Assembly (NCBI GenBank): GCA_039583875.1
Contig: CM077166.1
Location: 90,394,564-90,458,563, forward strand
Direction of reading: 5' to 3'
DNA length: 64,000 nt
Source of the DNA: Platanthera guangdongensis
Lineage: Eukaryota; Streptophyta; Magnoliopsida; Asparagales; Orchidaceae
Of this stretch, positions 3,535 through 49,009 are shown one piece after another. The notes under the pieces are model-generated. The model was not told the origin of the DNA, ran no database searches, and saw only the letters and a list, made by a program, of their open reading frames with translations. Within the stretch, counting starts at the first letter, position 1. Each line of letters starts with the position of its first letter. A program made the translations under genes and the position numbers.

Positions 3535-3599
3535 TGTAACGCCCCGAAACTCAAAGAAGCAAAGGGGAATATTTTTGGGCCAATTTGAGTTCTGGCTGC

Positions 3600-3990
3600 A
3601 GGCACACGCCTGGGACACGGGCGTGTCCCAGGGCGTGTCAAGCCTGTGTCGACACTAAGGCGCGAAGTCGACACTTTGGTCTCGACATTGTGTCGAGACT
3701 GGGCACACGGCCTGCGACACGGGCGTGTCGCAGGGCGTGTCGACCCGTGTCGACACTTAGCCGTGAAGTCGACACAGTGCTTCGACGTTGTGTCGAGACA
3801 TGGCACACGGCCTGCGACACGGGCTTGTCGCAGGGCGTGTCGACCCGTGTCGACACTCGTCCCGCGAAGTCGACAGTTTTGTGTCGACAGTGTGTCGAGA
3901 CATGGCACACGGCCTGCGACACGGGCGTGTCGCAGGGCGTGTCGACCCGTGTCGACACTTATCCGCGAAGTGTCGAGACCATGTACACGG
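3600..3990 (+). repeat. ~100-bp tandem repeat in G1 U3
   Basis: The landmark CGACCCGTGT recurs at 3741, 3841 and 3943, so the unit is 100-102 bp. Each unit contains GTGTCGACAC, a GTGTCGAGAC variant, and the near-palindrome GACACGGGCGTGTC. Open frames on both strands here arise because the period is close to a multiple of three; I do not regard them as genes. Confidence 0.85.
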
Positions 3991-4527
3991 CCTGGAGCCC
4001 AGGCGTGTCAAGGTGACACGGGCAAGGACACGGGCGTGTCCTAGAACCCGTGCAGTGCTCGGGTTGAAAACGGGAGAAAATCATGGGGTACACGGCCAGC
4101 TACACGGCCGTGTCAGGTGGGACACGGGCGTGTCAGATCGAACACGGGCGTGTTCGATACCCGTGTGAGGTTCCAGGTGATTCGATTTTGACGGCGAATG
4201 AGGCACATGGCCCTGGACACGGGCGTGTGCCATGCCGTGTTCGGTCCAGATTGGGCATTTCAGTCCCGAATCGAAGCCGTTCATTTCTTTGACTGAAGAT
4301 CCAACGGCTGGGGGTTGTTCCTGAAGGGATATACCCGGGTTTTGACTTAGAAAACCCTCACTTTTTCCACTTGTTCTCTCTCCAAACCCTTGGAGAAAGA
4401 AGAGCTAAGGCAAGAAGAAGAGGAGCTAGATCCGCCATTGGAGGAGCTTCGGAGCTCCGAATCGCAAGCCGACTCCGGATCCACGGAGGCAACGCAAGTG
4501 CGGTGATTTCCATACGATTACTTTTCG

Positions 4528-4551
4528 ATGGCGCCAAAGAGGACCGCAAGG
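4528..4551 (+). CDS. Putative gag exon 1 in G1 LTR
   Basis: ATG plus seven codons (MAPKRTAR) ends exactly at a GTAACG donor at 4552. The same 24-nt layout sits at the equivalent place in the G2 and G3 LTRs, although much flanking sequence has diverged. Basic residues fit the N-terminus of plant chromovirus Gag. The acceptor cannot be seen because the internal region 5' of integrase is missing. The splicing role is inference from comparison. Confidence 0.5.
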
Positions 4552-5840
4552 GTAACGATCCTCATCTTGAGCATGAGTCGCTCTCTTTCTTTGCATAGGA
4601 AGCCCGCTCTCGCGAGTTTGCGGAGAGTTGGAGGCATTCCTTCGGGTAGATATGTGAAGTCCCCGTTGTTTAGAGTCCGTATGCGAGAACGGACATAGGC
4701 ATTTTGGTTGAAGCCTACCCGGACATGTTAGTTCGGATCGGTGTTGTTGCATTGCATAAGGCCGGAGAAGACTCCGTGCTATTGGGTGTTTTTCGGGTTT
4801 TCTACGCGGTAGATCGCAGCAGGGAGCCTTGGGGACTAACCCAAAGGTGCACCCGGAAAACTGGGCGGACACGAGGTCTTGCCAACTTGGGGGCCTGAGA
4901 GCCAACTTGAACATAACGGGTTTATGTGTCTTGCGGTAGAATGGGACTCGGTGAAAGTTTGACCCGCGCAAATGGCTTAAATTGTCGTTGCGATGTGAGC
5001 ACGGGTTAGATGGAGCCGTACCCGCTCTATGTCGTTCTGGTTAGAGAGACCTAAAGTTACATGGCACTCGCCGTTGGCATAGATGGGGGTCTTCGGTGGT
5101 CAATGGCTTAAATTGACGTGACCAATACCATGAAGACGAATTGCTCATAGGAATGGCCGTCTAAGTGGCGGTGGTGAATCCGGAATGTTAATGGCTTTAA
5201 TTGACGTGGCATCGACCGGTTCACCGAGAATGTGCCCTGAGTGCACGGGGCGTGTGGCCGTGCGAGCCAACGCCTGTGATGAAATGGCTATGGTTACAAA
5301 TTGCTCGCTTATGCTAATGAAATGCAGGGAAGGAGCATCGCCGCCCCGAGTTGGGGGCGGGATCGTTATAATTTGGTCAGCATTGCTGACCGTTGCCTTG
5401 TTTGCCACCGTGCGGTGGTTTGTTTGGTTGCAGGTGCAGCTGGACCAAGCGGTCAATAGCGGGCTAAAGCCCTTTTTGCGAAGCTGGCCCTCGAAGGCCC
5501 AAGTGGAAATGTTTTATGTTTTATTCATGTATGGCCGGCCTGCGTGCCGAGGTTTGTAAATCATGTAAAAGACAAGTGAAACATTTTGTAAGGCCTTAAG
5601 GCCGACTTTTGAGTATTTTGTAATAACATTCCTATTATCATGTTAGTGGGCATTCATGCTTGTTGCTGGGTTCTTGTTTTGCAACTTATATAAACTGCTT
5701 CCGCTAGAATGCTCTGTGTAGGACGTTGAGATTGGTTGGATGGTTTCCATAAGTAACCACCCGGTCTATCCGTGGTATATGGCGTCGGGCCCCGGCAGGA
5801 CCTAGTGCTATATGCTATGCGACGGATAGGGGGTGTTACA

Positions 5841-14213: not shown

Positions 14214-14251
14214 CGACACCTTTTTACTTAGCCAATTTTTGTTCTGTATAC

Positions 14252-18827: not shown

Positions 18828-18840
18828 GCTTTGATACCAC
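18828..18840 (-). other. C1 primer-binding site (tRNA-iMet)
   Basis: On the minus strand TGGTATCAAAGCG lies one base from the 5' LTR. It is complementary to the 3' end of plant initiator tRNA-Met, the usual copia primer. The gag ATG is about 100 bp downstream. Confidence 0.9.
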
Positions 18841-18841
18841 T

Positions 18842-28085: not shown

Positions 28086-29738
28086 TTAGAATAGCCTTCC
28101 AAGCACACCCTCGTCATCGGCATCGAAGTACTCGACAGTTTTGTTAACAACGAGGAGATGGGGTTCTTCGACTAAGTTCACACCTTTTGAGGAGCAAGGA
28201 ACATCTGAAACTTCTTTGCCCTTTGTGTTTGATGGATCAGGGCGATCTTCTTTGGAAAGCAGGTCTCGCATCTTACCCTGACAGAGCATCCTTTACACAA
28301 GCTGGCTGAGTGCTCGGCAGTTCTCGATCAGGTCACCTGGCTCTTTGTGGAATTCGTAGTAAGGCTCTGAATCTCTAGACCTTTGATCGGCTGGTTCATA
28401 AGGCTTTTTGCAGCTAGCCCTATCTTTCATGATCTGGCTTACTTCTAGCATAACTTCATCTAGTTCGGACTCATGCAAGTCATCATCTCGCTGATGGCAG
28501 ACTGCAGCTATTTGAGAGGAAGCTAGCGGTAGGAACGAATCTTAAGCACGATCACGGCTCAGGAAAGAGTATCGATGGCGCTGAAACCTTTTTTCTTTCC
28601 TTGAATGAGTTGGCAAATCATTGTGTGGAGACCTCAGAGGCTGTTTGTGAAAAGGATCTTTCTCTGATATGAGCTTGGAGATGAAGCCTGGGTTGCTTTT
28701 TTCACCTCGGATGTATGAGTTGGCTAAGGCAATCACCTCTTGGTATGCTCTTGGTGCACGGACATTGGCTTCAAACTTGAGAGGCCCTTCATGGAGACCG
28801 TAGATAAGAGCAACTCGGTACATTTCTTGACTGACAATCTCGATGTCCAAGATTTCTCTTTGGAAACGATCAACGAACTGAGACCAAGTTTCATTCTCTC
28901 GTTGCTTGATCTCGAAGAGGGCTTCAGGACCACCCTTTCTCTTGGTGGAGGTAGAGAACCTGAACAAGAACTCTCTTCGTAGATTAACGAAGAAAGTGAT
29001 GGAGTGAGGACGAAGGCCATAGAACCAGTCCCTCACTTGCCCATCAAAAGTTGTTACAAGGAGCTTGCACTTGGTTGCATCTGACAAAGTCTTCAGAGCA
29101 ACAGCCGATTCGAAGGCTTGAAGGTGCTTTACTGGATCAATCTCTCCGGTGTAGATTGGTAATCGGGGTTCTCTGAAATTTGCTAGAGTTGGTTCATGAC
29201 GAACATTCTCTGCAAATGGCGAAGGCTCTTCCTACTCTCCTACAGCATAAGTATAAAAAGGAGAATACGTTGCAGTTGTAAAGGGAGCAGGAGGGTAAAA
29301 GGGAAAAGTTGTTGTAGGAGGAGCAAATGCAGGAGCTGCGGGGTAAGGGTGGCTTCCCTAAAAGTGGAAAAATCTGGCAGGGCATCCCCGGGCTGCTTCC
29401 CAGAAGAAGTTTTGGCGAGCAGCAAATTCTTCATCTTGAGGTCGCAGAGGAGCCGCTGGCCCTTGCGCGAAGGTTGCTGTGTAAGGAGGATAGATTGGCG
29501 GGCAAGCTTGAGGATAAGCTTGTTGATGTTCCAATGTTGGTGTTGGGTTGATTGGTACAGCTGGAGCAGCTCGAGCAGCTGTAGGATGAGTGCCTAATCA
29601 TTGTGTGATTGCAGTGAGCATTTGGTTGATTTCTTGGAACTGCTGAGCATTTTCAAGGCGCGATTGCTCAAAGGCCTCCCAGAGAGGATCATCTCTAGGA
29701 GTTGGAGCAAAGTTCTTGGCTGGTTGACGATCTGACAT
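28086..29738 (-). pseudogene. Element E gag (Tat-like)
   Basis: The start is ATG 29738 (MSDRQPAKNFAPTPRDDP). A Gln/Pro-rich N-terminus follows, with a TGA near 29597. The retrotransposon Gag core is at about 29200-28750 (YTGEIDPVKHLQAFES, SDATKCKLLVTTFDGQVRDW, RFSTSTKRKGGPEALFEIKQ, ETWSQFVDRFQRE, YGLHEGPLKFEANVRAPRAY). A C-terminal stretch reads YYEFHKEPGDLIENCRALSQ and QGKMRDLLSKED, the pattern found at the end of Tat-type Gag. Frame breaks near 29240 and 28500 and stops near 28290 disable it. No CCHC knuckle is obvious. Confidence 0.75.
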
Positions 29739-30180: not shown

Positions 30181-30289
30181 AGAGTTACAACTTGCTAATA
30201 CACCTTTTGTAACACCCCAGTTTTTGCAAGAGGTTCAGTCTGCAGTTCTGAACATTTTTGGGTTTCTGGCAGGGGACACACGTCCTGCG

Positions 30290-30720
30290 ACACGGGCGTG
30301 TCGCAGGGCATGTCGAGGCCGTGTCGACACTCGGCCCAAGTGTCGACACTTTCGCTCGACAAAGTGTCGAGAGTGGGGCACACGGCCTGCGACACGGGCG
30401 TGTCGCAGGGCGTGTCGAGGCCGTGTCGACACTCGGCCCAAGTGTCGACACTTTCGCTCGACAAAGTGTCGAGAGTGGGGCACACGGCCTGCGACACGGG
30501 CGTGTCGCAGGGCGTGTCGAGGCCGTGTCGACACTCGGCCCAAGTGTCGACACTTTCGCTCGACAAAGTGTCGAGAGTGGGGCAAACGGCCTGCAACACG
30601 GGCGTGTCGCAGGGCGTGTCGAGGCCGTGTCGACACTCGGCCCAAGTGTCGACACATTCGCTCGACAAAGTGTCGAGACTGGGGCACACGGCCTGTGACA
30701 CGGGCGTATCACAGGGCATG
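30290..30720 (+). repeat. 102-bp tandem repeat in G2 U3
   Basis: TTCGCTCGAC recurs at 30351, 30453, 30555 and 30657, exactly 102 bp apart. Each unit carries GTGTCGACAC twice (19 bp apart), GTGTCGAGAG, and GACACGGGCGTGTCGC. 102 is divisible by three, so open frames on both strands are artefacts. The 3' LTR copy is at 37790-38230. Confidence 0.9.
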
Positions 30721-31314
30721 TCCCGCTTGGTCGACGATCTTCGCTCGACGTTTTTCCGCGGTGTCGACACAAAGCCTATCGACGGGTGTCGAGACTTGGC
30801 ACACGGCTTGGGACACGGGCGTGTCCCAGGCCGTGTCATCTCTCGGGTTGGTTTTGGGGCCGTGTTGTTGGAGACACACGGCCGGCCACACGGCCGTGTC
30901 ACTGGGGACACGGGCGTGTCGGGTTGAACACGGGCGTGTCGGATGCCCGTGTGCGGTTCCAGGCGCGTCGATTTGAGACGGCGAATGAGGCACACGGCCC
31001 TAGACACGGGCGTGTGCCAGGCCGTGTTCGGCCTAGGTCTTTTATTTTCCAAGCGAATCGTGGCCATTCTTCCCAAGATTTTGGGATCTGACGGCTCAGG
31101 ACTGTTCTTGGGAAGTTAAGTCCGATTCTAGGGTTGGAAACCCTCATTTGTTTTCCAAGTCTTCACTTTCTAAGATCTTGAGAAAAACTAGAGCAAGGAG
31201 GAAGAAGAAGAAGGTCTTGGGCTGTAGGAAGGGTTTCAGAGCTCCAAATCGCGAGCCGAGTCCGGATCCGTGAAGCTTGGAGCGTTGCGAAGATTTCCAT
31301 CTGGCTATTTTGCC

Positions 31315-31338
31315 ATGGCAAGGAAGAGGAGTCGGAAG
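31315..31338 (+). CDS. Putative gag exon 1 in G2 LTR
   Basis: ATG plus seven codons (MARKRSRK), then donor GTAACG at 31339. Splicing to the acceptor ending at 33034 (TTGTTTTCCTGAAG) joins phase 0 to phase 0 and continues SASNEAGTSRARADL, giving Gag a basic N-terminus. The 3' LTR has the same exon at 38822-38845. An in-frame ATG at about 32960 would also allow unspliced translation, with an odd hydrophobic lead. Confidence 0.55.
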
Positions 31339-33034
31339 GTAACGACATCTCTCCTCTCGCTCCTTAGGATGCACGTATTAGCATCATTTAGTTTTCTTTC
31401 TCCCTAATTTTTGGGCACCGAACTCTCAAATGAGAGGGGTTTTGCTTTGCCAAGTTTCAAGAGGAACTTCCGGGTTGATTGAGTCCATCCCCGACATATT
31501 TTTGCATTAGAGATCCGCTTCGCTAGTGGATTAGGCATGGTGGGTGAAGCCGTAGTCGCGACCATTAGTCCGACTCGGTCATGTTGCATACGAACTTAGG
31601 GATTCGTAGAGATTTTCCGTTGCGGCAAGATGTCGTTTGTGTTTTGGTGGTGACTGTCCCGTTTATTTGCAAAGGTACGTGTAGTCGGACCCGGACAAGG
31701 TTAGCTCCTCGTGTCGTAGATGGTTTCCTTGAGGGACAAGGTTAGCTCCGCACGAGTTGGAGATGGTTTCCTTGGTGCGCGGGAACGCTGCAGTACAATG
31801 AGGGATTTTGATGTATTTGGTCTTGGTTTGTGTTGTGCCAAGGCGTGGCTATATCTCTGTGGTCGGCTGGCTATCCCGTGACATGTGCGTCATGTGTGGA
31901 GAGTGTCCCGGCGAGACTAGTCCCCTTATGTGAGACTAATGAGAATGCCAAGATTAGGGCAAGCCCGGGCAAAGAGGCCATGAGCGGGTGGGGTCCAGCA
32001 AGGCTTCTTAGAATCGGTCGGTCTGTGTTTGTTGGAATCCTGACATGAGACGTCAGAGTTTGCAGGCAAGCCCGGGGCTAAGCCCACGAGCGGGTGGGGC
32101 CTTGGCAAGAATTCCATGTGGCGGCCTGTGCGCCGTTTGAGGAGTTGTGTCTCCCTCATTGTTTGCGGCTTTATGCCCATGGGGAAATGTGAGTACCCAA
32201 ATGTTGTGATGTTGTGCTAGTTGCATACGCAGTAGGGTGCCTTGGGCGAGGCCCGAGTGTTGCATACATGTTGCATAGTAGGCCCTTTTATTTCATGCTC
32301 AACCAGTAGAGAACGTGTTTGATGATTGAGACATCCAAGCATGTTTTAATGCTTTTCTATTTATAGATGATTATATTTCATACGAAGTGCTGACTTGCTG
32401 GTTGGAGGGTTCCCCGGGGTCCGTTAGGGGCAGCCGGGAGGAGATGTGTTGTTACACAGTTTGAGGTCAGCCTTTGCTGACCCACGTTACTAATGATTTT
32501 TTTACAGGGCAAGGATCGCATGTAGAAGCTAGCACGCCGGCCAGAAAGGCCTAAGCCCCATGAAGTGTTTTTCCCTTTTTGTAGCACTACAGTTATGATG
32601 ATGTTTGTTTGAGACTATTTTGTCCGGCTTGCATGCCGAGCTAGACTAGGAGTGCTGAGCACATTCATGTTTGATGTACTATTTCTTTTTGGACACTTGT
32701 TGTAAGGCCTTAAGGCCATTTATCTTACTCTTTAGTGGTGGATAACTTCTAGTCCTGTTTTGTTTCCGCTGTGTTGTGCTAGTGTTTTGAGTTTGGGTAG
32801 TCATATCAACTTATAATACTAAAGTTGTGGCGTTCGTATGCTGTGGGGCCCCGGCCGGACCCATATTATACGTCCACTACAAGGGAGGTGTTACAATTTG
32901 GTATCAAAGCCAGGTTAGATTCAAGGTCAGTGCGTAGAGAAGTTATCCACATAAGAGTAATGCGGGACCGTGAGTGTCCTTATGTTCTAGTCTTGAGATT
33001 GGAGACTAATCCCTTATTTCTTGTTTTCCTGAAG
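31339..33034 (+). other. Putative intron 1 of G2 (LTR to gag)
   Basis: 1696 bp from GTAACG in the LTR to a pyrimidine-rich tract (CCCTTATTTCTTGTTTTCCT) and GAAG before gag. It removes the rest of the LTR and the primer site, so a spliced RNA could be translated but not reverse-transcribed. Other acceptor-like sites exist within U5 (for example 32507). Confidence 0.45.
32899..32911 (+). other. G2 primer-binding site (tRNA-iMet)
   Basis: TGGTATCAAAGCC starts three bases after the 5' LTR. It matches the complement of initiator tRNA-Met, the standard primer for plant chromoviruses. Confidence 0.9.
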
Positions 33035-34195
33035 AGTGCAAGCAACGAGGCGGGCACTTCAAGAGCAAGGGCTGATCTCTCGGCGAGCAGTGCAACTGCT
33101 CCAGGCCTTCTGGGCACGGGTGTAAACCCGGCTGACTTCTGTCGTATGCTTGCAGAAGCGATGGTGGCGGCACAAGCGGCGGCTGCAACCCAGGTAGCAA
33201 CCCCTGCTACATCGGACACGGCGACGGCCGTGCCAGGCGGAGAAGCCAGGCGAGTGGAGCCTTTGGCAAAAAGGTTCGTGGTAGGGCTTGGAGACCGACA
33301 CATGAAGTATTTCCTGAGTTTCCATCCCCGTCTTTCAAGGGTGTAGGAACGCCAACGGACGCGGAGGATTGGTGGGTTGGTATTCAAGAACTGTTAAGGG
33401 CGGCAGAGACTCCAGAGGAGAAGAAATCCGAGTATGCGGCGTTCATGTTGGAAGGAGACGCCAAATTGTGGTGGGTGAGCCATAGCGGCCGCCTGTTCCC
33501 GGGGCGCACCCCGTAAGTGGAAGAGTTTGGGGACGCTTTTCTTAAGAGGTATATTCCAGTTTCAACACGGTTGGCCCTGCAGAGGCAGTTTCTGCATCTA
33601 ATGCAGCGAGACAAGACAGTGGATGAGTACGTGCAAGAGTTCACCCGTTTGGGTCGTTATGCGGGAACGACAATGGCGGATGATGTAGAGAGGGATAACC
33701 TCTTCTACCAAGGTTTGAGGGAGAATCTGAGACAGCCTCTCATCTCCATGAAGAGGGCGGGATTTAATGAGCTAGTTGAAGCCGCCAGGAGTTTGGAGAG
33801 TGATCTGGAGCGAACCCAGCGTCGAAAGGGTTTTACTCCCAAGCATGGGGAAGGGAAGCCCTCCCAATCTCATGTAAAGTCTGATGGGAGCAGGTGGAGG
33901 AGGAAGCCTCACCCTTCCAGGTCGGCTGAGAGGAGCACTTGGACGCCTGGGGCTTCTCACTCTAGGGGACCGCCGACGTGTTACAACTGCGAGAAGGTTG
34001 GGCACATAGCCCGTGCTTGTCAGCAAGGGGGAGCGGGGCAAGAGTCAAAGCAAGAGCAGTCTATGCGCTCGGGCCCCAGTGCTGCAGAGAAAGGAAAGAT
34101 GGCGGAGTCGAGCGCTTCTCGGTTCCAACCGGTGCAACCAAGGGCTTACAACCTTGGACAGCAAGAAGCGATCCGCCAAACCGATGTGGTGACAG
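33035..34195 (+). pseudogene. G2 gag
   Basis: It begins SASNEAGTSRARADL. The Gag core runs GVGTPTDAEDWWVGI, EGDAKLWWVSHSGR, EEFGDAFLKRYIPVS, DKTVDEYVQEFTRLGRYA and LRENLRQPLISM. A CCHC knuckle, CYNCEKVGHIARAC, is at about 33979-34020. The frame ends VDVVTG-like (TDVVTG) at 34195, at the donor of the gag-pro intron. A frameshift near 33340 (within the pyrimidine/purine run before GGTGTAGG) and a TAA at 33514-33516 disrupt it. Confidence 0.85.
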
Positions 34196-34269
34196 GTATG
34201 AAGAAAATTTAAATTTGCATTTGTGCTTCATACTTTTAGACCCCCTTTCCGTGTGTTGTCTTGTTGTAG
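34196..34269 (+). other. Putative gag-pro intron in G2 (74 bp)
   Basis: GTATGAAGAA...TTGTTGTAG. Phase-1 removal joins DVVTG to FVLVSGYPARVLFDTGAS in one frame. The insert holds a stop (TAA at 34210) and is not a multiple of three, so unspliced RNA stops after Gag. Confidence 0.55.
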
Positions 34270-37200
34270 GCTTCGTGTTAGTTTCTGGATACCCCGCTAG
34301 GGTATTGTTCGATACGGGAGCATCACACTCCTTTCTTGCGGAGAGCTTCGTCCGAAGGGTAGGAGTCGAGTCCTTCTTGGCGGACGCGGAACTGAAAGTG
34401 CGCATGCCCAATGGGTCATCTATGACCACCAGGGCTAGAGGGCGCATCTGTTGGGAGCTAGACGGAGTTGACTTCGTTTTGGAAGCGGCAGTGTTGCCGT
34501 TAGTAGAATTCGATGTCATTTTGGGCATGGACTAGCTTGCAGAGCAGCGCGCCAGCATTGATTGTTTGTCCAAGGTAGTGACCCTAAAGAGTAAGGGGCA
34601 ATCGGAAGTCAAATTTGTGGGCCTTTGTGGAGTAGCCCATTCCCAAATTACGGCCATGCAAATGATGCAGGCGGTTAACCAGGGAGGTGTGGCGCTGGTA
34701 GCGTTGTTGGAGGTTCGTCTCTCCCAGCTATCTTTTGAGGAAGTGCCTGTGGTGGCAGAGTTCAGAGATGTGTTTCCGGATGAACTTCCTGGAGCGCCTC
34801 CCCGGCGGGAGATCGACTTTTCGATCGAGTTAGTGCCGGAGGCTAGACCGGTGTCGCGTCCTCCTTTTAGGATGGCACCAAAGGAGTTGGCGGAACTTAA
34901 GGTACAGGTACAGGAACTGTTGGAGCAGGGGTATATTAGGCCCAGTTCCTCACCGTGGAGCGCACCGGTGTTGTTTGTAAAGAAGAAAGACGGTAGCATG
35001 CGCCTGTACATAGACTACCGAGAGCTGAATAAATTGACCGTCAAGAATAAGTATCTGATCCCTCGGATAGATGATTTGTTCGACCAATTGGTGGGGTCAG
35101 TGGTATATTCGAAGTTGGACTTGAAGTCAGGCTACTATCAGCTGTGAATTCGGGACGAGGACATACCCAAGACTGCCTTTGGTACAAGGTATGGACACTT
35201 TGAGTTTACGGTGATGTCGTTCGGGTTGACGAATGCACCATCGGTGTTCATGGACCTTATGAATCGGGTATTTCGGGAATACTTGGATTCGTTTGTGGTT
35301 GTCTTCATTGATGACATTTTGGTGTATTCCAAATCGCAAGTGGAGCATGAGACCCACTTGAGAATAGTTTTGCAAGTGTTGAGGGAGAATGAGTTGTATG
35401 CAAAATTCTCCAAATGCGAGTTCTGGCTGGAGAATGTGGCATTTTTGGGCCACGTGATTAGTGGTGATGGGGTGGCAGTGGATCCGGCGAAAGTGGAGGC
35501 CATCAGAGACTGGCCGGTGTTGAGGATCGTTGCGGAAGTCCGAAGTTTTCTTGGACTAGCCGGGTACTATAGGAGATTCGTGGAGAATTTCTCGAAGTTA
35601 GCTCTACCCCTCACCTCACTCACTCGTAAAGACCATAGGTTTGTGTGGACCCAAGAGTGCAGTCAAGCATTCGAGGCACTGAAGGAGAGGCTTATGACAG
35701 CTCCGATCCTGAGTTTATCGCAAGGGACCGATGGATTTCAGATTTTCAGTGACGCATCGGGATGCGGTTTGGGTTGCGTGTTGGTGCAACATGGCAAGGT
35801 AATAGCTTTTGGGTCTCGACAGCTGAAACCTCATGAGAGGAATTACCCCATCCATGACTTGGAGTTGGCGGCGGTAATCTTCGCATTGAAAATATGGCGA
35901 CACTATGTGTATGGCGCAAGGGTGGAGATCTTCACGGACCATAAAAGCCTGAAGTATCTCTTGGATCAGAAGGACTTGAACATGCAGCAACGCAGATGGG
36001 TTGAATTCCTTGGAGACTACGAAGTGGCGATTCAGTATACGCCGGGTAAGGCCAATGTGGTGGCGGATGCGTTGAGTAGAAAGTACTCGGGGCAAGGAAA
36101 TTGGATCGAAGCTCATGATGAGCGGTTGGTTCGGGAATGGGAGTCCCTTGGGTTGGAATGTGTTGCGAGAGGCGAGTCTACCGTGGCTCGGTTGAACTGG
36201 ATTGAAGTGCAAAGCGACTTGTCCGATCGTATTCGGGAAGCGACTCGATTGGATGTGGAGTTTCAACCTTTTGTGTTGGAGGCTCAAAAGGGCGAGAGTA
36301 GCGCCTGGGAGATGAATGGGGGAATCTTGAGAAAGGATGGAAGGGTTTGTGTACCGCAGTTTGGCAATCTCCGTGATGAGTTGATGTTTGAGGCTCACTT
36401 CTCAAAGTACTCCATTCACCCTGCCAGTACAAAGATGTACTTGGATATGAAGAAATCCTTTTGGTGGCCGGGGTTGAAGCGAGATGTAGCTTTGTATGTG
36501 AGTCGTTGCCAAACATGTGCCTTGGTGAAGGCCGAATGTCAGAAACCGGGCGGGTTCCTGAAGCCCCTTCCAATTCCTGAATGGAAATTTGAGGACATCT
36601 CCATGGACTTTGTGCATGGTTTGCCTAGATCGCAGCAAGGTAATGATGCTATTTGGGTGATCGTGGATCGCCTAACTAAGGTGGCTCACTTCATCCCAAA
36701 TCGGAAAGAGGACAGCGTGGAGAAGCTGGTGGAGTTGTATGTTCGCAACATTGTGCGACTGCACGGAGTTCCTAAGAGCATAGTCAGTGATCGAGATGGA
36801 CGATTTACGTCCAAGGACTGGAGATTGGTTCAGAAGAGCTTGGGCACGAAGCTAAAGTTTAGTACGACGTTCCATCCTCAAACGGATGGGCAAACGGAGA
36901 GAACGAACCGTACTATGGAGGACATGTTGAGGATGTGCGTTCTTGATTTTGGCAAGAGGTGGGAGGATCACCTCTTCATGGTAGAATTTGCGTACAACAA
37001 CAGTTTTCAAGCTAGTATAAAGATGGCGCCATACGAAGCTTTGTATGGGAGGCGGTGTCGAACGCCAATGTCATGGGCAGAGGCGGGAGACACCAAACTT
37101 TTGGGAAAGGGTGCGGTAGTTGACGCTTGTGAGTTGGTACAGACCATCCAAGAGCGTATGAAGGTGGCGCAAGACAGGCAAGCAAAATATTTTAATGCTC

Positions 37201-37655
37201 GTCACCGGAAGTTGGAATTTACAGTTGGTGATTGGGTTTATCTGAAGGTCAAGCCGTTCAAAGGCGTCTCACGGATTCGCCGACTCAAGAAGTTGAGTCC
37301 AAGGTTTTTGGGGCCTTTTGAAATTGTTGAGCGGGTAGGAGAAGCAGCATATCGGTTGGCATTGTCCGCAGACTTGAGTGGGTTACACGACGTCTTCCAC
37401 GTCTCCGCTTTGAGGAAAGCCTTGGTGGAGGCTAGCGTGGTGATAGAGCCGGCATCGGTGCCGATTGAGGAAGACTTGAGGACGCGAGTCCTCCCAATTG
37501 CTATAGAGGATTCGGAGACTCGGCAGTTGCGGAATAAAGAAGTCAAACTCGTGAAAGTTCGATGGGACAACTGCGGTCGTGAGGAGTTCTCTTGGGAACG
37601 AGAACAGGCCATGCTAGAAGATTATCCAGAACTCTTCATGTCAGGTACAATTTAA
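34270..37655 (+). pseudogene. G2 protease, RT, RNase H, integrase, chromodomain
   Basis: Protease: VLFDTGASHSF and VILGMD, with TAG at 34533-34535 in place of the expected Trp. [37 protein letters not shown] and the FIDDILVYS box near 35300; TGA at 35145-35147 replaces Arg. RNase [14 protein letters not shown] and [14 protein letters not shown], then [15 protein letters not shown]. Integrase: [44 protein letters not shown] (catalytic Glu kept). Chromodomain: [14 protein letters not shown], ending YPELF. 35211-37655 is open for 814 codons, and the catalytic residues seen there are intact. Both stops can be explained by single C-to-T or G-to-A changes. Confidence 0.92.
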
Positions 37656-37714: not shown

Positions 37715-40403
37715 TGTAACACCCCAGTTTTTGCAAGAGGTTCAGTCTGCAGTTCTGAACATTTTTGGGTTTCTGGCAGGGGGCACACGGCCTGCGACAC
37801 GGGCGTGTCGCAGGGCGTGTCGAGGCCGTGTCGACACTCGGCCCAAGTGTCGACACTTTCGCTCGACAAAGTGTCGAGAGTGGGGCACACGGCCTGCGAC
37901 ACGGGCGTGTCGCAGGGCGTGTCGAGGCCGTGTCGACACTCGACCCAAGTGTCGACACTTTCGCTCGACAAAGTGTCGAGAGTGGGGCACACGGCCTGCG
38001 ACACGGGCGTGTCGCAGGGCGTGTCGAGGCCGTGTCGACATTCGGCCCAAGTGTCGACACTTTCGCTCGACAAAGTGTCGAGAGTGGGGCACACGGCCTG
38101 TGACACGGGCGTGTCGCAGGTCGTGTCGAGGCCGTGTCGACACTCGGCCCAAGTGTCGACACATTCGCTCGATAAAGTGTCGAGACTGGGGCACACGGCC
38201 TGTGACACGGGCGTGTCACAGGGCGTGTCCCGCTTGGTCGACGATCTTCGCTCGACATTTTTCCGCGGTGTCGACACAAAGCCTGTCGACGGGTGTCGAG
38301 ACTTGGCACACTGCTTGGGACATGGGCGTGTCCCAGGCCGTGTCATCTCTCGGGTTGGTTTCGGGGCCGTGTTGTTGGAGGCACACGGCCGGCCACACGG
38401 CCGTGTCACTGGGGACACGGGCGTGTCGGGTTGAACACGGGCGTGTCGGATGCCCGTGTGCGGTTCCAGGCGCATCGATTTGAGAGGGCGAATGAGGCAC
38501 ACGGCCCTGGACACGGGCGTGTGCCAGGCCGTGTTCGGCCCAGGTCTTTTATTTTCCAGGCGAATCGTGGCCATTCTTCCCCAGATTTTGGGATCTGACG
38601 GCTCTGGACTGTTCTTGGGAAGTTAAGTCCGATTCTAGGGTTGGAAACCCTCATTTGTTTTCCAAGTCTTCTCTTTCTAAGTTCTTGAGAAAAACTAGAG
38701 AAAGGAGGAAGAAGAAGAAGGTCTTGGGCTGTAGGAAGGGTTTCAGAGCTCCAAATCGCGAGCCGAGTCCTGATCCGTGAAGCTTGGAGCGTTGCGAAGA
38801 TTTCCATCCGGCTATTTTGCCATGGCAAGGAAGAGGAGTCGGAAGGTAACGACATCTCTCCTCTCGGTCCTTAGGATGCACGTATTAGCATCATTTAGTT
38901 TTCTTTCTCCCTAATTTTTGGGCACCGAACTCTCAAATGAGAGGGGTTTTGGTTTGCCAAGTTTCAAGAGGAACTTTCGGGTTGATTGAGTCCATACCCG
39001 GCATATTTTTGCATTAGAGATCCGCTTCGCTAGTGGATTAGGCATGGTGGGTGAAGCCGTAGTCGCGACCGTTAGTCCGACTCGGTGATGTTGCATACGA
39101 ACTTAGGGATTCGTAGAGATTTTTCGTTGCGGCAAGATGTCGTTTGTGTTGTGGTGGTGACTGTCCCGTTTATTTGCAAAGGTACGTGTAGTCGGACCTG
39201 GACAAGGTTAGCTCCTCGTGGCGGTAGATGGTTTCCTTGAGGGACAAGGTTAGCTCCGCACGAGTTGGAGATGGTTTCCTTGGTGCGCGGGAACGCTGCA
39301 GTACAATGAGGGATTTTGATGTATTTGGTCTTGGTTTGTGTTGTGCCAAGGCGTGGCTATGTATCTGTGGTTGGCTGGCTATCCCGTGACATGTGCGTCA
39401 TGTGTGGAGAGTGTCCCGGCGAGACTAGTCCCCTTCTGTGAGACTGACGAGAATGCCAAGCTTGGGGCAAGCCCGGGCAAAGAGGCCATGAGCGGGTGGG
39501 GTCCAGCAAGGCTTCTTAGAATCGGTCGGTCTGTGTTTGTTGGAATCCTGACATGAGACGTCAGAGTTTGCAGGCAAGCCCGGGGCTAAGCCCACGAGCG
39601 GGTGGGGCCTTGGCAAGAATTCCATGTGGCGGCCTGTGCGACGTTTGAGGGAGTTGTGTCTCCCTCATTGTTTGCGGCTTTATGCCAATGGGGAAATGTG
39701 AGTACCCAAATGTTGTGATGTTGTGCTAGTTGCATACGCAGTAGGGTGCCTTGGGCGAAGCCCGAGTGTTGCATACATGTTGCATAGTAGGCCCTTTTAT
39801 TACATGCTCAACCAGTAGAGAACGTGTTTGATGATTGAGACATCCAAGCCTGTTTTAATGCTTTTCTATTTATAGATGATTATATTGCATACGAAGTGCT
39901 GACTTGCAGGTTGGAGGGTTCCCCGGGGTCCGTTAGCGGCGGCCGGGAGGAGATGTGTTGTTACACAGTTTGAGGTCAGCCTTTGCTGACCCACGTTACT
40001 AATGATTTTTTACAGGGCAAGGATCGCATGCAGAAGCTAGCACGCCGGCCAGAAAGGCCTAAGCCCCATGAAGTGTTTTTCCCTTTTTGTAGCACTACAG
40101 TTATGATGATGTTTGTTTGAGACTATTTTGTCCGGCTTGCATGCCGAGGTAGACTAGGAGTGCTGAGCACATTCATGTTTGATGTACTATTTCTTTTTGG
40201 ACACTTGTTGTAAGGCCTTAAGGCCATTTATCTTACTCTTTAGTGGTGGATAACTTCTAGTCCTGTTTTGTTTCCGCTGTGTTGTGCTAGTGTTTTGAGT
40301 TTGTGTAGTCATATCAACTTATAATACTAAAGTTGTGGCGTTCGTATGCTGTAGGGCCCCGGCCGGACCCATATTATACGTCCACTACAAGGGAGGTGTT
40401 ACA
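37715..40403 (+). repeat. G2 3' LTR
   Basis: 2689 bp, near-identical to the 5' LTR. Differences seen by eye are mostly single-base transitions in the CpG-rich U3 repeats (37790-38230). It carries the same mini-exon at 38822-38845. A sharper acceptor-like TGCTGACTTGCAG is seen near 39909. Confidence 0.95.
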
Positions 40404-41794: not shown

Positions 41795-43711
41795 TGTAAC
41801 GCCCCAAAAATTGTTATCGAGATGGTCGCGTCCTATGAAATTTTTGGTGTCTATATAGGGGTACACGTCCTGGGACACGGGCATGTCCAAGGCTGTGTGG
41901 TTCTCTGTGTTAGCCGGCTGTGTCCAGAGAAGGACACGGCAGGAAATACGGCAGTGTGACACAGGCTTTTCAACTGACACGGGCATGTGCATACCCGTGT
42001 CACCACCCGTGTTCCCAAGAGTCGTGTCAGTTGGCGTGGCGGTTTTCTGTGACACAGCCCTAGGTCATGGGTGTGTCAGGACACGACCGTGTCTAGATCG
42101 AGGCACATGGCCCGGGACACGGTCGTATGCGAGGCCGTGTTCGGCCAAGGTTTGAGGATTTTTGGGCATATTTGAGCCGTTTGTTTTCTTTAATTAAGAT
42201 CTGATGGCCTAGAAATGTTCCTGCTCTGTTAAGGTCCGGAATGGAGGTTGTATTCCTCATTTGCTCTTTAACATTCTCTTTCTAAGAAGATTGAGAGAGG
42301 AGAGAGCAAGGAGGAAGAAAGGGGAGGTTTCCGGCTGCCGACGGAGCATCGGAGCACCGAATCGAGAACCGAGAGCGGATCCGCGGAGGAAGTTCCATTG
42401 TGAAGCTATCTATCCGTTTAGTTTTTCCATGGCGCAAAAGCATACTATAGGGGTAAAGATTCTCTACTTGAGCATGTGAAGCTCTCCTTCTTTTGCATAA
42501 GGACACCCGCTCGTGCGAGTGTGCGGTGAGTGTGCGGTGTTCTTTGGGTTTGACGGGAATAGTCCCCCTTGTGTTGCATATAGAGTCCGGAATCAAAGTA
42601 CGGACATATGCATTGTGTGTGAAGCCTACTCGGACGTGTTCGTCTAGATCAGTGATGTTGCATTTTGTATGATTTGTCGGAGAAGACTCTGTGCTTTGTG
42701 TTTTTTGGGTTTCTACGCGGTAGATTACAGCAGGGATCCTTGGGGATTAACCCCAAGGCGCACCCGAAAAGCTGAGCAGAAATGTAGTTCTGCTAACTTG
42801 GTGGCCGGGGAGCCGGCCTTGTACATATCTTGGTTATATTATGTTTGGAATTGATGCGGGATACGAGAGAAGATTGGCTCGTGTGTACGTCTTAAGGTGA
42901 CTACGTGATGTGAGCAACGGGCAAGTGGAATCAGACCTGGGCTATGTGGTTCGGTGCGAGAGACCCAAGGAGGGACTGGCTGTTGGCATAGTCAGGAGCC
43001 TTAGACGGTGGTCAAAAAGGCTAAAATGCTCACGATGTTGCCATCCCGGTGATAGTGGTGAAGCCACGGAATTGACCGGATTCACCGATAATGTTCCTTG
43101 AGTGCACGGGGTGTTTGACCGTGTGAGCCTACACCTGTGGCGAAGTATGATTGTATTTTATTATTTACCTGGGATAATGAAATGCAGGGAAGGAGCACCG
43201 ATGTCCCAATTAAGCGGCGGGGTCGTTATAATTTGGTCAGCTTTGGCTGACCATTACTTTGTTTGCCACCATGCGGTGGAATGTTGCTTGCAGGTGCTGC
43301 AGAGCCAAGTACCAAATAGCGGGCTGAGGCCCATGTTGTTGAGCTGGCCCTCGAAGGCCAAAGCTAATTGTTATTTTACTGTTGTCATGTGTGGCCGGCC
43401 TGCAAGCAGATGTATGTAAAACATTACTTTGTTAAGTGAAACTCTTGTAAGGCGATAAGGTCAAGTACTTTCAGTGTATTTGTTGTTTTATTCCTATAGT
43501 GTTCTGTGGACATTCATGATAGTTGGTTTTCAATTTTGGGTTCTTGACAACTGTTTAAAAGCTTCCGCTAGAATGCTCTGTGTTAGGGTGAGTAGTCGTA
43601 GTTGCAATGTTTAGATATTCTTACCCAACCCTTCCGACTGTCCGGGGTATATGGCGTCGGGTTCCAGCTGGACCTTCTGTTATATGCCATATGACGGATG
43701 GGGGTGTTATA
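41795..43711 (+). repeat. G3 5' LTR
   Basis: 1917 bp, starting TGTAACGCCCCAA and ending GGGTGTTATA (the usual TTACA with one change). U3 has scattered ACACGGGCATGTCC and ACACGGTCGTATGC-type half-palindromes but no GTGTCGACAC. It is closest to the G1 LTR at its 3' end. A degenerate primer site (TTTGGTATCATACTT) follows at 43712. Confidence 0.85.
42429..42452 (+). CDS. Putative gag exon 1 in G3 LTR
   Basis: ATG plus seven codons (MAQKHTIG), then GTAAAG at 42453. A phase-0 acceptor, TTTTTGCTATTTTAG, ends at 43934, and gag continues AARSGAGQSE. In unspliced RNA the TAG of the acceptor is itself an in-frame stop directly before gag, so no upstream in-frame ATG is available. Confidence 0.5.
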
Positions 43712-43934
43712 ATTTGGTATCATACTTCTGGTTTCGGTCAACTTAAATGAATTCGTGGACGAATTCTTTTTAAGGGGTGGTGAGCACATGTGTGCGTTAT
43801 CGTTATAACATCAAAAAGAACCAATGAATGTCCACTTAGGAATGAAAAATACACTTGTTTTGAGAAATCTGAGTGTTCCAATCATTGCTTTTTGCAATCT
43901 ATTTGTCGTCTAATCAAGGTTTTTGCTATTTTAG
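42453..43934 (+). other. Putative intron 1 of G3 (LTR to gag)
   Basis: 1482 bp from the LTR donor to the T-rich acceptor before gag. Like the G2 intron, it spans U5 and the primer site. It also contains acceptor-like AATGAAATGCAG near 43187 and GTTGCTTGCAG near 43293, which have counterparts in G1 (near 5327 and 5430). Confidence 0.45.
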
Positions 43935-45077
43935 GCAGCTAGGAGCGGTGCTGGGCAATCAGAATGCCCGCAATCGGTGGAAAGTAGTGCACCGAGGGAC
44001 GTTCCTACAACACATCCTTCAGCGGAAACCATCAGATTTGTTGCTGAAGCAGTCTTTGCTATGATAAATGCCCAACCTACAGATTAAATGCATCATGCAC
44101 CACCTGTAAATGAGTAAGAATGGATTAGGGCGACAGAGACGGGAGTGGTAGAGCGCGCGACAGTTGATCAGGAAGCACTAAGGGGAGCTACGGAGAAGCA
44201 GCTCAAGCATGTAATGAGCTTTAATCCTCCGAGGTTCGACAGGATTAGAACCCCAACTCAAGCTGAGGATTGGCTCTCTATGATAAAGCGGGTCTTGAGG
44301 GCCACAGAAACTGTTGTGTGGCAGAAGACCACCATAGTGACATTCCTTTTGGCTGGTGAGGCGAGGATGTGGTGGGACGAGCTGGAGGTTCACATCTTAG
44401 TGTGAAGGCAACTTGCAGATGTGCCTATGGAGAAATTCTCAAGGTTGTTATTGGCCAGATATCTACCCTCTGCTCAGAAGCTTGGGATGGAGAATCAATA
44501 CTTTGTTTGACTTAGGGAGACAGAAGCGTGGATGAGTATCTCCACGAGTTTACGTGGTTGGGTTGTTATGCTGGTGTTATGTTTACTGAAGAGGTGAGGA
44601 AGACCAACCGACTTTATGAGGGTCCACGTGGCAACCTACAGCTACTCCATGCTACGCCTAAGGCATAGGGCTTCCAAGACTTGGTCAATTCGGCCCGGTC
44701 GTTGGAAAAGGTCGTGAAGAAAGTGCAAGAGAAGAAGGACCCAGGGGAAAAGAAGTCAGAGTTCAAAGTTCCAAATTCAAAGCCTGGTTTTCGCAGATGG
44801 AACAAGAAGCCGAAGACTTCGAGCTCAGCCCCTTCATCCGGTGCGGCGGGGGCAACCACAAGTCGAGTCCCAGGAGCATGATATAACTGCAGAAAGATGG
44901 GGCATTTAGCTCGTGAGTGTTGGAGCGGACGTGCAAAGTCCGAGAGGAAGGATGGAGCAACCTATGAAGAGAAAGGGAAGGCGGTGGAGTCAACCGCATC
45001 CCACCATGCTCCAGCCCAGCCTAGAGTTTATAACCTTGGTCTGCAAGAGGCTATAGAACAAGTTGACGTGGTGACAG
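43935..45077 (+). pseudogene. G3 gag
   Basis: Starts AARSGAGQSE. Recognisable blocks: PSAETIRFVAEAVFAMINAQ, KQLKHVMSFNPPRFD, QAEDWLSMIKRVLRA, LLAGEARMWWDELE, a broken middle, LVNSARSLEK, and a CCHC knuckle, YNCRKMGHLARECW (near 44883-44925). It ends VDVVTG at the intron donor. Several stops and frameshifts (near 44080, 44110, 44403 and 44870). Confidence 0.8.
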
Positions 45078-45155
45078 GTATGAGTTAAATTATAGCAGTT
45101 TAACTTTATGTATTTATTACCTTTTTATATGTTAGCTTACATTTGTTGGTGCGAG
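45078..45155 (+). other. Putative gag-pro intron in G3 (78 bp)
   Basis: GTATGAGTTAAAT...GGTGCGAG. Phase-1 removal joins DVVTG to FELIFDCPARALFDTGAS, the same residues as in G2. The length is a multiple of three but holds an in-frame TAA. A second AG at 45134-45135 would give the wrong frame. Confidence 0.5.
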
Positions 45156-47927
45156 GCTTTGAGTTGATTTTTGATTGTCCGGCGAGAGCCCTGTTTGATA
45201 CGGGAGCTTCGCATTCCTTCCTGTCCGAACGATTTGTATCGCGCATCGGAGTGCCTTCCTCGATGGCTAAAGACAAGTTGGATGTGTTGTTACCAAATGG
45301 GTGCTCAATGCGCGCGGATAGAGTCTGTGTGGTTAAGATTCGGATTGGGGATCAGGAGTTTGACTTACAAGCATCGATACTACCGTTAGTGGAGTACGAC
45401 ATAATCTTTGGTATGGACTGGCTCTTAGAGCAGCGAGCATGTATTGATTGCAACCAAAAGGATGTTAAGTTGGGACTAAACACTAATCAAGAGATTACGT
45501 TTGCTGGCATGAAGGGGACAGGTAAAGTTTTAATGTCGGTCCTTCAGGTGATTAAGGCAGTTCGGTCTGGGGCATAGGTGTTTGTCACATTAGTGCAGGA
45601 TTAAACGCCTAAGCCGAGTCTGGGCAATATTCCAGTTGTGTCCGAGTATCCTAATGTGTTCCCAGATTATCACCTAGGACCACCTCATTAGCGGGAGATT
45701 GATTTTATTATTGAGCTGGTGCCGGGTTCCAATTCGGTGTCATGCTCTCCATATCAGATAGCGCCAAGAGAGATGGCGGAGCTGAAGGTACAACTGCAAG
45801 AGCTGTTGGAGCAAGGGTATGTGCATCCAAGTTCGCCACCTTGGAGCGCACCGGTCCTTTTCGTTAAGAAGAAGGATGGGAGCTTGCGACTCTATATTGA
45901 CTATCGGGAGTTGAACAAGCTTACAAAGAAGAATATGTATTTGATCCCAAGGATTGACGATCTATTTGATCAGTTGGTTGGGTCTACGGTATATTTTAAG
46001 TTGGATCTCAAATCTGGTTACTACCAATTGAGAATAATGGAAAGCGACATCCCAAAGACAACATTCAACCTGCGGTTTTGGCATTACGAGTTCACGGTCA
46101 TGCCATTTGGGTTCACCAATGCACCATCCATTTTTATGGATCTGATGAACAAGACGTTCAGAGAGTACCGGGATCGTTTCGTGTTTGTATTTATCGACGA
46201 TATCTTGGTGTACTAGCAGTGTGAGGATGATCACTACAAGCATCTGCCTATGGTGTTGGAGACGTTGAGTAGGAATCAGTTGTATGCTAAGTTCTCCAAG
46301 TATGAGTTCTGGTTATCCTCAGTAGCGTTACTTGGTCTTGTTGTTAGTGGAGAAGGGATAGCGGTGGATCTGGCGAAGATAGTGGCAATATGTGAGTGGC
46401 CTGTATTAACTACAGTGGCGGAAGTCTGGAGCTTTTTGGGGCTTGCCGGCTATTACAGGCACGTCGTAGAGAACTTCTCGCGGATAGCTCTACCACTCAC
46501 GAAGTTGACAAGGAAGGATCAAAAGTTTGTGTGGTCGCTGGAGTGCGAGCAAGCTTTTGAAGAGTTGAAGAGGCGGTTGACCACAGAGCCTATTTTAAGT
46601 TTGCCGAGTGGACCCGAATGGTTTGAAATTTACAGTGATGCTTCAGGAAGTGGTTTGGGTTGTGTTCTGCTACAGCATGGGAGTGTGATATCCTATGGTT
46701 CACGACTTTTGAAGGTTCACGAGAGGAATTATCCGGTTCACGACTTAGAGTTAGCGGCCATGATATTTGCTTTAAAGCTGTGAACGCACTATCTGTACGG
46801 TGTCAAGGTCGATATCTGCACCGATCATAAGAGCCTGAAATACCTGTTAGATCCGAAGGACCTGAACATGAAGCAGCGGAGGTGGTTGGAGTTCCTGGGG
46901 GACTACACCTTTAAGATACATTATGTGTCTGGGAAAGGAAATGTAGTGGCAGATGCGTTGAGTTGCAGGGCTCCTGCGCGAGCCAGCTGGTTGTCAGTAC
47001 ATGATGGGAGTTTGGTCCGTGAATTGGAGGCATTGGAGATAACTTGTGTCGACAAGCAGTCTAGTGCCGAGGCAAAATTTTTTTGGATAGAGGTGCAGTA
47101 TGACCTAGCAGATAGAGTTCGACGAGCTTTGGTTCAGGATAGCAGCATGAAGCAGATCTTAGATGAATCTTTGGATGGGTCAAATTCCCAATTTGCTGTT
47201 GAGGATGGACTACTATGGAGGGACGGTCGCCTATGCATTCCTAGTGCGGGTAATCTTCGGGAGGAGTTGATGTATGAGGCTCATCATACCAAGTACTCAA
47301 TCCACCCAGGAAGAACAGAGATGTATAAAGACATGAAGAAGTTGTTCTGGTGGCCAGGACTAAAGAAGGATGTAAGACTTTGTGTGGCCAAGTGCCAGAC
47401 GTGTGCCTTGGTGAAGGCGGAGTGCCATAAGCCCGGAGGTTTCTTGAAGTCCCTACCTATCCCGGAGTGGAAATTTGACGACATTTCTATGGATTTTGTG
47501 CATTGTTTGCCAAAGTCGCAGAGGGGAAACGATGCCATCTGGGTGTTCGTGGATAGATTGAGAAAGGTGTCGCATTTCATCCCGAACAGGAAGGAAGATC
47601 CGGTGGAAAATTTAGCCAAACTCTATGTGGATAATATTGTGTGATTGCATGGTGTGCCCCGCAGTATTGTTAGTGACCGAGATGGATGCTTCACGTCGAA
47701 TGACTGGAGGCTGGTGCATAGTCTGTTGGGTACTAAGTTGAGTTTCAACACAGCCTTTCATCAGAAGATGATGGTCAGACCGAGAGGGTCAACCGGATGA
47801 TGGAGGACATGCTTCGTATGTGTGTCTTGGATTTCGGAAAGCAGTGGGAAGATCACATGTACATGGTGGAGTTTGCATATAACAATAGTTATCAGGCGAG
47901 TATTGGAATGACGCCTTTCATGGCCTT
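45156..47927 (+). pseudogene. G3 protease to integrase, truncated
   Basis: Protease ALFDTGASHSFLS and [53 protein letters not shown]. RNase [43 protein letters not shown]. Integrase: [34 protein letters not shown]. Stops at 45575, 46214, 46781 and 47642, and a deletion near 47770. The frame is cut at 47927 by C4, after TPFMAF-like sequence; the rest of integrase and the chromodomain are not in the window. Confidence 0.9.
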
Positions 47928-49009
47928 TGAAAGTGAGGGGTTAGATCTAGAATACTCTAGAGGGGGGGGGGGGGGGGTGAATAGAGTATTTATGGTTTTT
48001 ATAAAATTTTCTAACTTCTTTAATCTAGTCCTAGTGCTGCAGTAATTAAATTAAAGCACAAACACAACAATCCTAACTATCACAGCCACATCAAGAAACA
48101 AAAGAAAAGCGCAACCAGACAATACAAGCAGTTTTTGGTGGTTCCCCAACCTGTGTACATCCTCTCTTCTACTACCATGGTCGGAATACACGCAGATTTT
48201 TGATCAGGTGCCTTACACAAATGAGCTTTTGATAAGGTGCTCAAAAACTAAACCTCAAGTCTTTTGGTCAGTTGACTTGCAAGCAGGAATAACTTTTGAA
48301 GGGAGTTAAGAAACCTTTATACAGTGGGGGTGAGAGATTGATTTTGTATTCTCTTTTTCAATGTACAACTAAGAAGACTTTTGTGGATCTTGATGTTAGC
48401 AAAAGGATCCACCTGAGATGTTGAATGGTTCAGGAAGATGGAGCTTTACTTTAGGGTGATAGGCTTTCAGACTTTCAGCTTTGACCAGATAAAGTACAGG
48501 AACTTCTTGACAGAATGAATATGTGTTGTCCTTTGAAAAATCCTGGAATAAGACAGAAGAAGACTCTTGATTTTGATTGTTTATTCTTCTTCCTTCTTCA
48601 ACTTGCTAATGGTTCACTAGTCTAGGGCTTGTTTTGTTGTATCACTGTATTCTGTATTGCTGTAAGATTGAAGTTCATGCAGAGAGCTGTGTATTGTCTT
48701 CTCTATTTGTGTGTATTATTTCTCAGTCACTATCGAGAGGAGGAAGAAAAATCCCTTTTATATTTTCAAGATTATCTTCCTTTTGAAATTTGAAATCTCT
48801 TCTGCATTCATTGCTGACGGCCTGGAGAATGTTTTGCATTGATTGAGTTTCCCCAACTATCCCATGGAAAAATGGCAAGAAATAATCCTGCAGAAGACCA
48901 TAATTAATGCACCGTCTAACGGTAATATTCAGAGAATATTTTAGCATTAATTACTCAGGAATTATTATAGTAGGAAAGGGACAGAAGGATGGAAATAACC
49001 AAGTCTGGA

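Follow-up and report, generated by a model that had tools for sequence, protein, structure and literature searches.

How a retroelement can use one RNA both for translation and for reverse transcription has long been asked, and the locus described here raises this as a question about where the Gag protein begins. The window analysed, a stretch of 64,000 nt from Platanthera guangdongensis (contig CM077166.1, positions 90,394,564 to 90,458,563), is plant DNA crowded with long terminal repeat (LTR) retrotransposons. Three of them, G1, G2, and G3, are probably of the Tekay type (chromovirus, Ty3/gypsy), the Tekay name being given by resemblance. Reverse transcriptase and integrase are abbreviated RT and INT. 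We consider splicing from the LTR to gag in G1–G3 the best single explanation of what their sequences contain, and one with slightly better than an even chance of being right. Briefly, the LTR would hold the Gag start and the first eight codons about 173 nt past a candidate start site, and then a splice donor. Joining this donor to an acceptor immediately ahead of gag would take out the remaining LTR and the primer binding site. The spliced product would be a capped mRNA whose short leader lacks ATG, encoding Gag(-Pol) with a basic N-terminus, while the unspliced RNA would keep U5 and the primer site together with many upstream ATGs and would act as the genome. Because the spliced RNA would have no primer site, it would not be reverse transcribed and the intron would not be lost by retrotransposition. 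The start site, the use of the splice sites, and this division of labour between two RNAs are what we infer from the sequences.

A start codon and a candidate splice donor at the same place in three LTRs

In three diverged LTR families, ATGGC and further codons, 24 nt in total, run up to GTAA(C/A)G with the same spacing (Table 1). The first-pass annotation had reported an ATG and seven further codons stopping at this donor in three LTRs, and its coordinates, codons, and phases are all correct. G1 is a 3′ LTR with pol upstream, and its gag is therefore outside the window. Upstream of the exon-1 ATG, at 172 nt in G1, 173 nt in both G2 LTRs, and 174 nt in G3, lies the shared motif CCTCA(C/T)TT, which we take as a candidate initiator. 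No ATG is found between this motif and the exon-1 ATG in G1, G2, or G3; the nearest preceding ones are 296, 330, and 188 nt upstream of the exon-1 ATG, respectively. Downstream, 37 ATGs follow in G1 (to the LTR end), 41 in G2 (to gag), and 34 in G3 (to gag), and with so many after the exon-1 ATG, cap scanning could not plausibly reach gag on an unspliced RNA. Dinucleotide shuffles reproduced the arrangement, defined as at least 100 nt free of ATG and then a first ATG with a phase-0 donor scoring at least 5 within 60 nt, in 22 (G1), 33 (G2), and 9 (G3) of 1000 cases; the start points and the threshold were picked after the sites were known, the donors were scored with a plant matrix, and homology among the three LTRs means that these results are not independent events.

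The encoded octapeptides add to the observed sequences, phases, and first-ATG position. MAPKRTAR (G1) and MARKRSRK (G2) resemble the Tekay Gag N-termini MPPRR, MPPKR, and MARRMR. They contain three and five K/R residues, which places both among the eight of 171 stop-free ATG octapeptides, taken from both strands of the three LTRs, that have at least three. For comparison, 23 proteins with the capsid region at residue 20–170 were available among 234 (two lists, each the best 120 of about 7950): at least two K/R residues occur at positions 2–9 in 16 of the 23, and eight start with MPP(R/K/A), although many of these proteins are gene models, one has no Met, the one from the L003 family (see below) begins upstream of MARRMR, and some of the starts are unsure. 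The Gag N-terminus was not seen in the seven orchid proteins that were read (P0121, P0122, P0124, P0127, P0128, P0130, and P0147), which start within or after gag.

An intron that would end at gag

If joined to exon 1, the spliced frame continues into gag in both G2 and G3. The phase-0 acceptors that had been proposed directly before gag, at 33034 in G2 and 43934 in G3, do agree in phase with the donors. Scored by a plant matrix, they rank 6/146 in G2 and 1/111 in G3. A CTAAT match to the branch site is present 25 nt before the acceptor in G2 (33006–33010) and 21 nt before it in G3 (43910–43914); CTAAY is found within the scanned range of 14 of 146 AGs in G2 and 5 of 111 in G3.

The composition changes in the direction expected of a plant intron. 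T makes up 24.1% (G2), 22.8% (G3), and 19.9% (G1) of the leader, 31.4% (G2), 31.6% (G3), and 28.0% (G1) of the intron or U5, and 18.3% (G2) and 19.7% (G3) of gag. When the leader was taken to begin at the candidate initiator, Fisher tests of leader versus intron T gave p = 0.018 (G1), 0.039 (G2), and 0.013 (G3). Plant introns are marked by U-richness, according to passages of the BARE1 paper (PMC3735527).

In G3, a TAG (43932–43934) is in frame immediately before gag. The first-pass annotation had taken this acceptor TAG to leave gag with no start unless spliced; the stop is indeed present, but it is little proof alone, as the G3 gag is decayed.

The Gag start of a distant intact relative

Three plant-like contaminants, L003, L004, and L005, came out of one scan of contigs from bacterial and archaeal genomes; they are plant LTR retrotransposons in the public assemblies of Geminicoccus harenae, Solirubrobacter sp., and Robertmurraya kyonggiensis. 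L005 covers protease to integrase only. L003 and L004 belong to the same family, have an open gag-pol open reading frame (ORF) of 1504 and 1505 amino acids (aa), and their pol is 52.8% identical to that of G2. Their Gag start, MARRMRSTQ, follows the primer site and runs directly into gag. The first-pass annotation had expected its reading to fail if the LTR ATG or donor were lost in intact relatives with a good ATG past the primer site; the distant L003/L004 are intact relatives with such an ATG, and a coding LTR exon is not a general rule of such elements.

The L003 3′ LTR is truncated where the contig ends; it carries CTATAAATA near position 6064 and is free of ATG from 6093 to 6250. Near the end of this stretch is the donor AAG/GTAAGG (6223/6224), the best of 115 donors. 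Past this donor U5 contains 39% T versus 20% in the A-rich expected leader, and the T changepoint, at 6276 and thus near the donor, is significant (0/300 shuffles). The acceptors directly before the gag ATG are weak: L003 has none in the 15 best of 69, and that of L004 is twelfth of 89. With this one outgroup, an LTR-donor intron with a non-coding exon 1 may be the older state, the start codon having been captured later by exon 1 in the orchid lineage. The broader proposal that LTR-donor splicing to the gag start is an old Tekay route to the Gag mRNA, with the start codon moved into the LTR exon in the orchid lineage and solo LTRs acting as exon traps, is tentative, and we are inclined to doubt it.

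L003/L004 also bear on the question of whether the intron is used at all. Gag might instead be made by internal initiation or reinitiation past the primer site, at 32960 in G2, with the LTR ATG being no more than the start of an upstream ORF. The in-frame ATG at 32960 is the first past the primer site, and the intact L003/L004 likewise begin Gag downstream of theirs. Against this, 41 ATGs, 32960 included, separate exon 1 from gag in G2; the protein begun at 32960 would have a hydrophobic N-terminus, MRDRECPYVLVLRLETNPLFLVFLK, which is a translated pyrimidine tract; G3, decayed as it is, has its stop directly before gag; and the best donor of the L003 3′ LTR is also near the end of an ATG-free stretch. 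We regard this explanation as quite unlikely.

Strong candidate acceptors in U5

The strongest acceptor of G1 and G2 sits in U5, not at gag. The U5 acceptors rank 1/146 in G2 (32507), 1/71 in G1 (5433), and 3/111 in G3 (43293), and a GTCAGC..GCTGAC inverted repeat precedes them in all three elements. The best acceptor of L003 is likewise in U5 (253, rank 1/69), and another at 534, after TGAGCAA..TTGCTCA and a C-rich tract, ranks 12/69. The donor may be real and yet joined to a U5 acceptor, the intron lying entirely in the LTR, the LTR ATG opening a short upstream peptide, and Gag coming from another isoform or from reinitiation. We rank this lower, as unlikely, because T remains as frequent past the U5 acceptor as elsewhere in the intron (34% in both G2 and G3), because the U5-spliced peptides end within U5, and because a U5-spliced RNA that keeps the primer site would be copied back minus its intron, so that such an intron should vanish. 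It would also leave the Gag-like octapeptide and the gag phase without explanation. The gag acceptor and the U5 acceptor may both be used.

The same parts of U5 have further features of their own. The regions 32440–32660 (G2), 5300–5560 (G1), and 43160–43420 (G3) combine the GTCAGC..GCTGAC repeat and the acceptor-like site with short GGCC-type inverted repeats, and L003 has at 475–600 the TGAGCAA..TTGCTCA repeat followed by a C/T-rich tract and CCCAG/G; inverted repeat and acceptor-like site together may represent a U5 element common to such LTRs. Shortly past the U5 acceptor, the G2 5′ LTR reads TAG (32523–32525) where the 3′ LTR reads CAG (40031–40033), and a U5-spliced peptide would therefore be shorter from the G2 5′ LTR. 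A model of three exons, one of them in U5 (G1 5434–5551, G3 43294–43411, G2 32508–32641), was rejected: its frame stays open as far as the donor in G1 and G3, but in G2 it stops before the donor.

Exon-1 conservation and other points of doubt

Several observations weigh against splicing from the LTR to gag, in addition to the ATG at 32960, the contiguous Gag start of L003/L004, and the strong U5 acceptors of G1 and G2. The first-pass annotation had proposed testing whether the 24-nt exon is more conserved than its flanks, and it is not: over G1–G3, 10 of its 24 columns are invariant, compared with 69 of 149 before the exon and 35 of 101 beyond the donor hexamer, and without ATGGC only 5 of 19 remain. 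Codon positions 1, 2, and 3 of exon 1 are invariant at 4, 3, and 3 of 8 columns; in the donor hexamer, 5 of 6 columns are. The similarity of G1 and G2 is steady across the donor in a global alignment (leader 0.705, +1 to +200 0.720). An abrupt fall in similarity between the LTRs at the donor, where the G1/G2 BLAST match stops (4558/31345), was considered as a further sign; the global alignment has no such drop, so it was not used. The donors are mediocre, ranking by the plant matrix 6/248 in G2 (5′ LTR plus leader), 4/242 in the G2 3′ LTR, 16/180 in G1, and 9/187 in G3, and the G2 gag acceptor is not the top-ranked one. The G3 octapeptide, MAQKHTIG, has a single K and fits poorly to a basic Gag start. 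Finally, the T changepoint scan is non-significant in all three elements, the observed value being reached by 130 (G1), 58 (G2), and 62 (G3) of 300 shuffles; for G2 the best changepoint (31347) falls close to the donor, and for G1 and G3 it lies elsewhere, with T falling.

One could read these points as coincidence in old copies, that is, shared LTR ancestry keeping the spacing of ATG and GT with no function behind it. Exon columns no better conserved than the flanks, and mediocre donors, are what such a history would leave; the rarity of the arrangement among the shuffles, the additional agreement of phase, and the peptide type in G1 and G2 speak against it, and we consider coincidence very unlikely. 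The proposal of a coding exon 1 and a U5-spanning intron keeps the octapeptides of G1 and G2, the first-ATG position, the branch matches, and the T-richness on its side, and has conservation, the U5 acceptors, and L003/L004 against it.

Structure and class of the elements

G2 is structurally complete, with both LTRs, a target site duplication, primer site, gag, RT, RNase H, and integrase; its LTR pair is 97.6% identical over 2690 columns. The domain order gag–protease–RT–RNase H–INT is that of Ty3/gypsy (gag 33517–34209, RT from 34536, RNase H and integrase in 35148–37652), where the protease is assigned by position and ORF reading. The gag-pol is damaged by frame changes within gag and between gag and protease, and in-frame stops end ORFs at 33516, 34535, and 35147. 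Over a stretch of 145 integrase residues, identity to G2 is 79% for G1 and 76% for G3. Among the best 120 of 7961 protein matches to G2 pol, the top two are Platanthera proteins, the best being from Platanthera zijinensis with 86% identity over the whole query, which by itself makes an orchid host probable. The C-terminal chromodomain PF00385 is matched at E 0.037 in G2 and E 0.0018 in G1, both below the Pfam cut-off, and at E 0.0089 in the intact relative L003. The G2 primer site is presumably for tRNA-Met. Passages of the Beta chromovirus paper (PMC3605345) describe, for Beta chromoviruses, a tRNA-Met primer site not far from the LTR and, for Bongo elements, LTRs of about 2.5–3 kb; G2 has a presumed primer site of this type near its LTR, and its LTRs are within that range, those of G1 and G3 being shorter. 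U3 contains tandem repeats, each unit being about 102 bp long, in which GTGTCGACAC and ACACGGGCGTGT motifs occur; these lie at 30208–30813 and 37715–38218 (G2) and at 3601–3971 (G1).

Table 1. Coordinates in the window of the LTRs, proposed exons and introns, and related features of G1, G2, and G3 (a slash marks a splice junction)
Feature	Position	Strand	Remarks
G1 3′ LTR	3535..5840	+	2306 nt; pol at 2135–3466 upstream
G1 exon-1 homologue, MAPKRTAR, ATGGCGCCAAAGAGGACCGCAAGG	4528..4551	+	donor AGG/GTAACG
G2 5′ LTR, TGTAACACC...GGTGTTACA	30208..32895	+	2688 nt; CCTTT at 30203–30207 just upstream
G2 candidate initiator motif CCTCATTT	31142..31149	+	putative initiator
G2 putative coding exon 1, MARKRSRK, ATGGCAAGGAAGAGGAGTCGGAAG	31315..31338	+	donor AAG/GTAACG
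G2 proposed intron (U5, primer site, leader)	31339..33034	+	1696 nt; donor AAG/GTAACG, acceptor TTTTCCTGAAG/AG
G2 first base past rival U5 acceptor TTACTAATGATTTTTTTACAG/GG	32508	+	top score of 146 AGs
G2 primer binding site TGGTATCAAAGC	32899..32910	+	3 nt past LTR end 32895
G2 rival in-frame ATG of unspliced RNA	32960..32962	+	first ATG past primer site; gives MRDRECPYVLVLRLETNPLFLVFLK before gag
G2 gag-pol, broken	33035..37655	+	frame changes and in-frame stops
G2 3′ LTR	37715..40403	+	2689 nt; then CCTTT 40404–40408, target site duplication
G2 3′ LTR exon-1 copy	38822..38845	+	identical to 5′ copy (sequence match)
G3 5′ LTR	41795..43711	+	1917 nt
G3 exon-1 homologue, MAQKHTIG, ATGGCGCAAAAGCATACTATAGGG	42429..42452	+	donor GGG/GTAAAG
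G3 proposed intron	42453..43934	+	1482 nt; acceptor GCTATTTTAG/GC
G3 gag-pol, decayed	43935..47928	+	two stops in first 70 gag codons

Neighbouring elements and searches for relatives

Elsewhere in the window, a Ty1/copia-type element on the minus strand (8661–20911), which we take by resemblance to be SIRE-like, has near-identical long LTRs, a primer-site match at 18839–18828, and long ORFs between pol and the 3′ LTR (11165–13573). Parts of a second copy of it, also on the minus strand, are found at the window end (56819–63817). A 229-aa ORF on the minus strand (28542–29231) looks to us like a gag of the Athila/Tat kind.

A protein search of viral contigs matched the pattern in one stretch, with none confirmed as a plant relative; three DNA patterns in the viral contigs gave two loci (L001 and L002) with no tblastn match below E 0.03, and the other patterns gave none. 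Three plasmid records were found, all at or below 35.7% identity, and no phages. The protein search with the G2 gag piece returned 314 candidates, none at E ≤ 0.001.

Implications

If LTR-to-gag splicing is confirmed, an intron that contains the primer site would settle the split between translation and reverse transcription mechanically: the spliced RNA would not be copyable, and the unspliced RNA would be hardly translatable. It would also account for Tekay LTRs with a kilobase or more of U5. In that case each solo LTR could act as a mobile unit of promoter, start codon, and phase-0 donor, able to trap host exons behind a basic peptide that resembles a nuclear localization signal.

Comparison with known systems

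An LTR-to-gag intron in a plant element is not named in the titles, abstract starts, or passages of the open-licence literature covered here, three of the listings comprising 25 of 280, 15 of 1,908, and 20 of 31 entries, nor is one mentioned in passages of PMC9289625 (orchid Ty3/gypsy), PMC3485330, and PMC11963269. Plant LTR elements "generally lack introns", with Ogre and EVADE as exceptions, as stated in a passage of PMC12786077; spliced plant elements listed in passages of PMC3735527 are BARE1, Bagy2 env, Ogre, and CRR, and two sunflower elements have spliced isoforms with truncated Gag (passages of PMC7730604). Passages of the CRM (PMC3059260) and Beta chromovirus (PMC3605345) papers describe ORFs entering the 3′ LTR and mention no start in the 5′ LTR. 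Closest among plant elements in having a separate spliced Gag RNA are BARE1 (Ty1/copia, barley) and EVADE (Arabidopsis); in these, however, passages of PMC3735527 and PMC12786077 place the intron at the gag end or over the protease, which gives Gag without Pol and leaves the primer site and the LTR uninvolved. Ogre (Ty3/gypsy, Tat) is alike in that an intron is removed from a subset of the transcripts of a plant gypsy element (passages of PMC6317226), but the Ogre intron lies between protease and RT, whereas the one proposed here is upstream of gag; in G2, the protease ORF (to 34535) and the RT ORF (from 34536) are in the same frame and separated by a stop codon, with no gap. The rice elements Retrosat2/FRetro3, of which Retrosat-2 is listed in Tekay in a passage of PMC6317226, also have long LTRs and unusual 5′ coding, with an ORF0 upstream of gag-pol; ORF0 is a separate ORF, and no splicing is reported in the passages of PMC3485330.

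L003/L004 are like G2 in their related gag-pol, in a best 3′ LTR donor that comes late in a stretch without ATG, and in a basic Gag start, and differ in that this start is contiguous with gag, past the primer site. Outside plants, Ty1 of yeast has its Gag start codon in the 5′ LTR, as proposed here, but reads through the primer site with no intron. In avian leukosis/Rous sarcoma virus, a few codons ahead of a donor begin a spliced protein, as exon 1 would; that donor is in gag, however, and the mRNA is that of env, so that Env is made. Foamy viruses (Spumaretrovirinae) make their Gag from unspliced RNA. Their major splice donor is in the R region of the LTR (passages of PMC5294762), and Pol and Env come from spliced RNA (passages of PMC7828637). 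The likeness would be an LTR donor, and so spliced RNAs without U5 and primer site, the G2 donor at 31338/31339 being a candidate from sequence. The foamy pattern of spliced Pol and unspliced Gag is not the one found, as the frame analysis links exon 1 to gag: in G1–G3, Gag itself would be the spliced product, with its start codon in the LTR.

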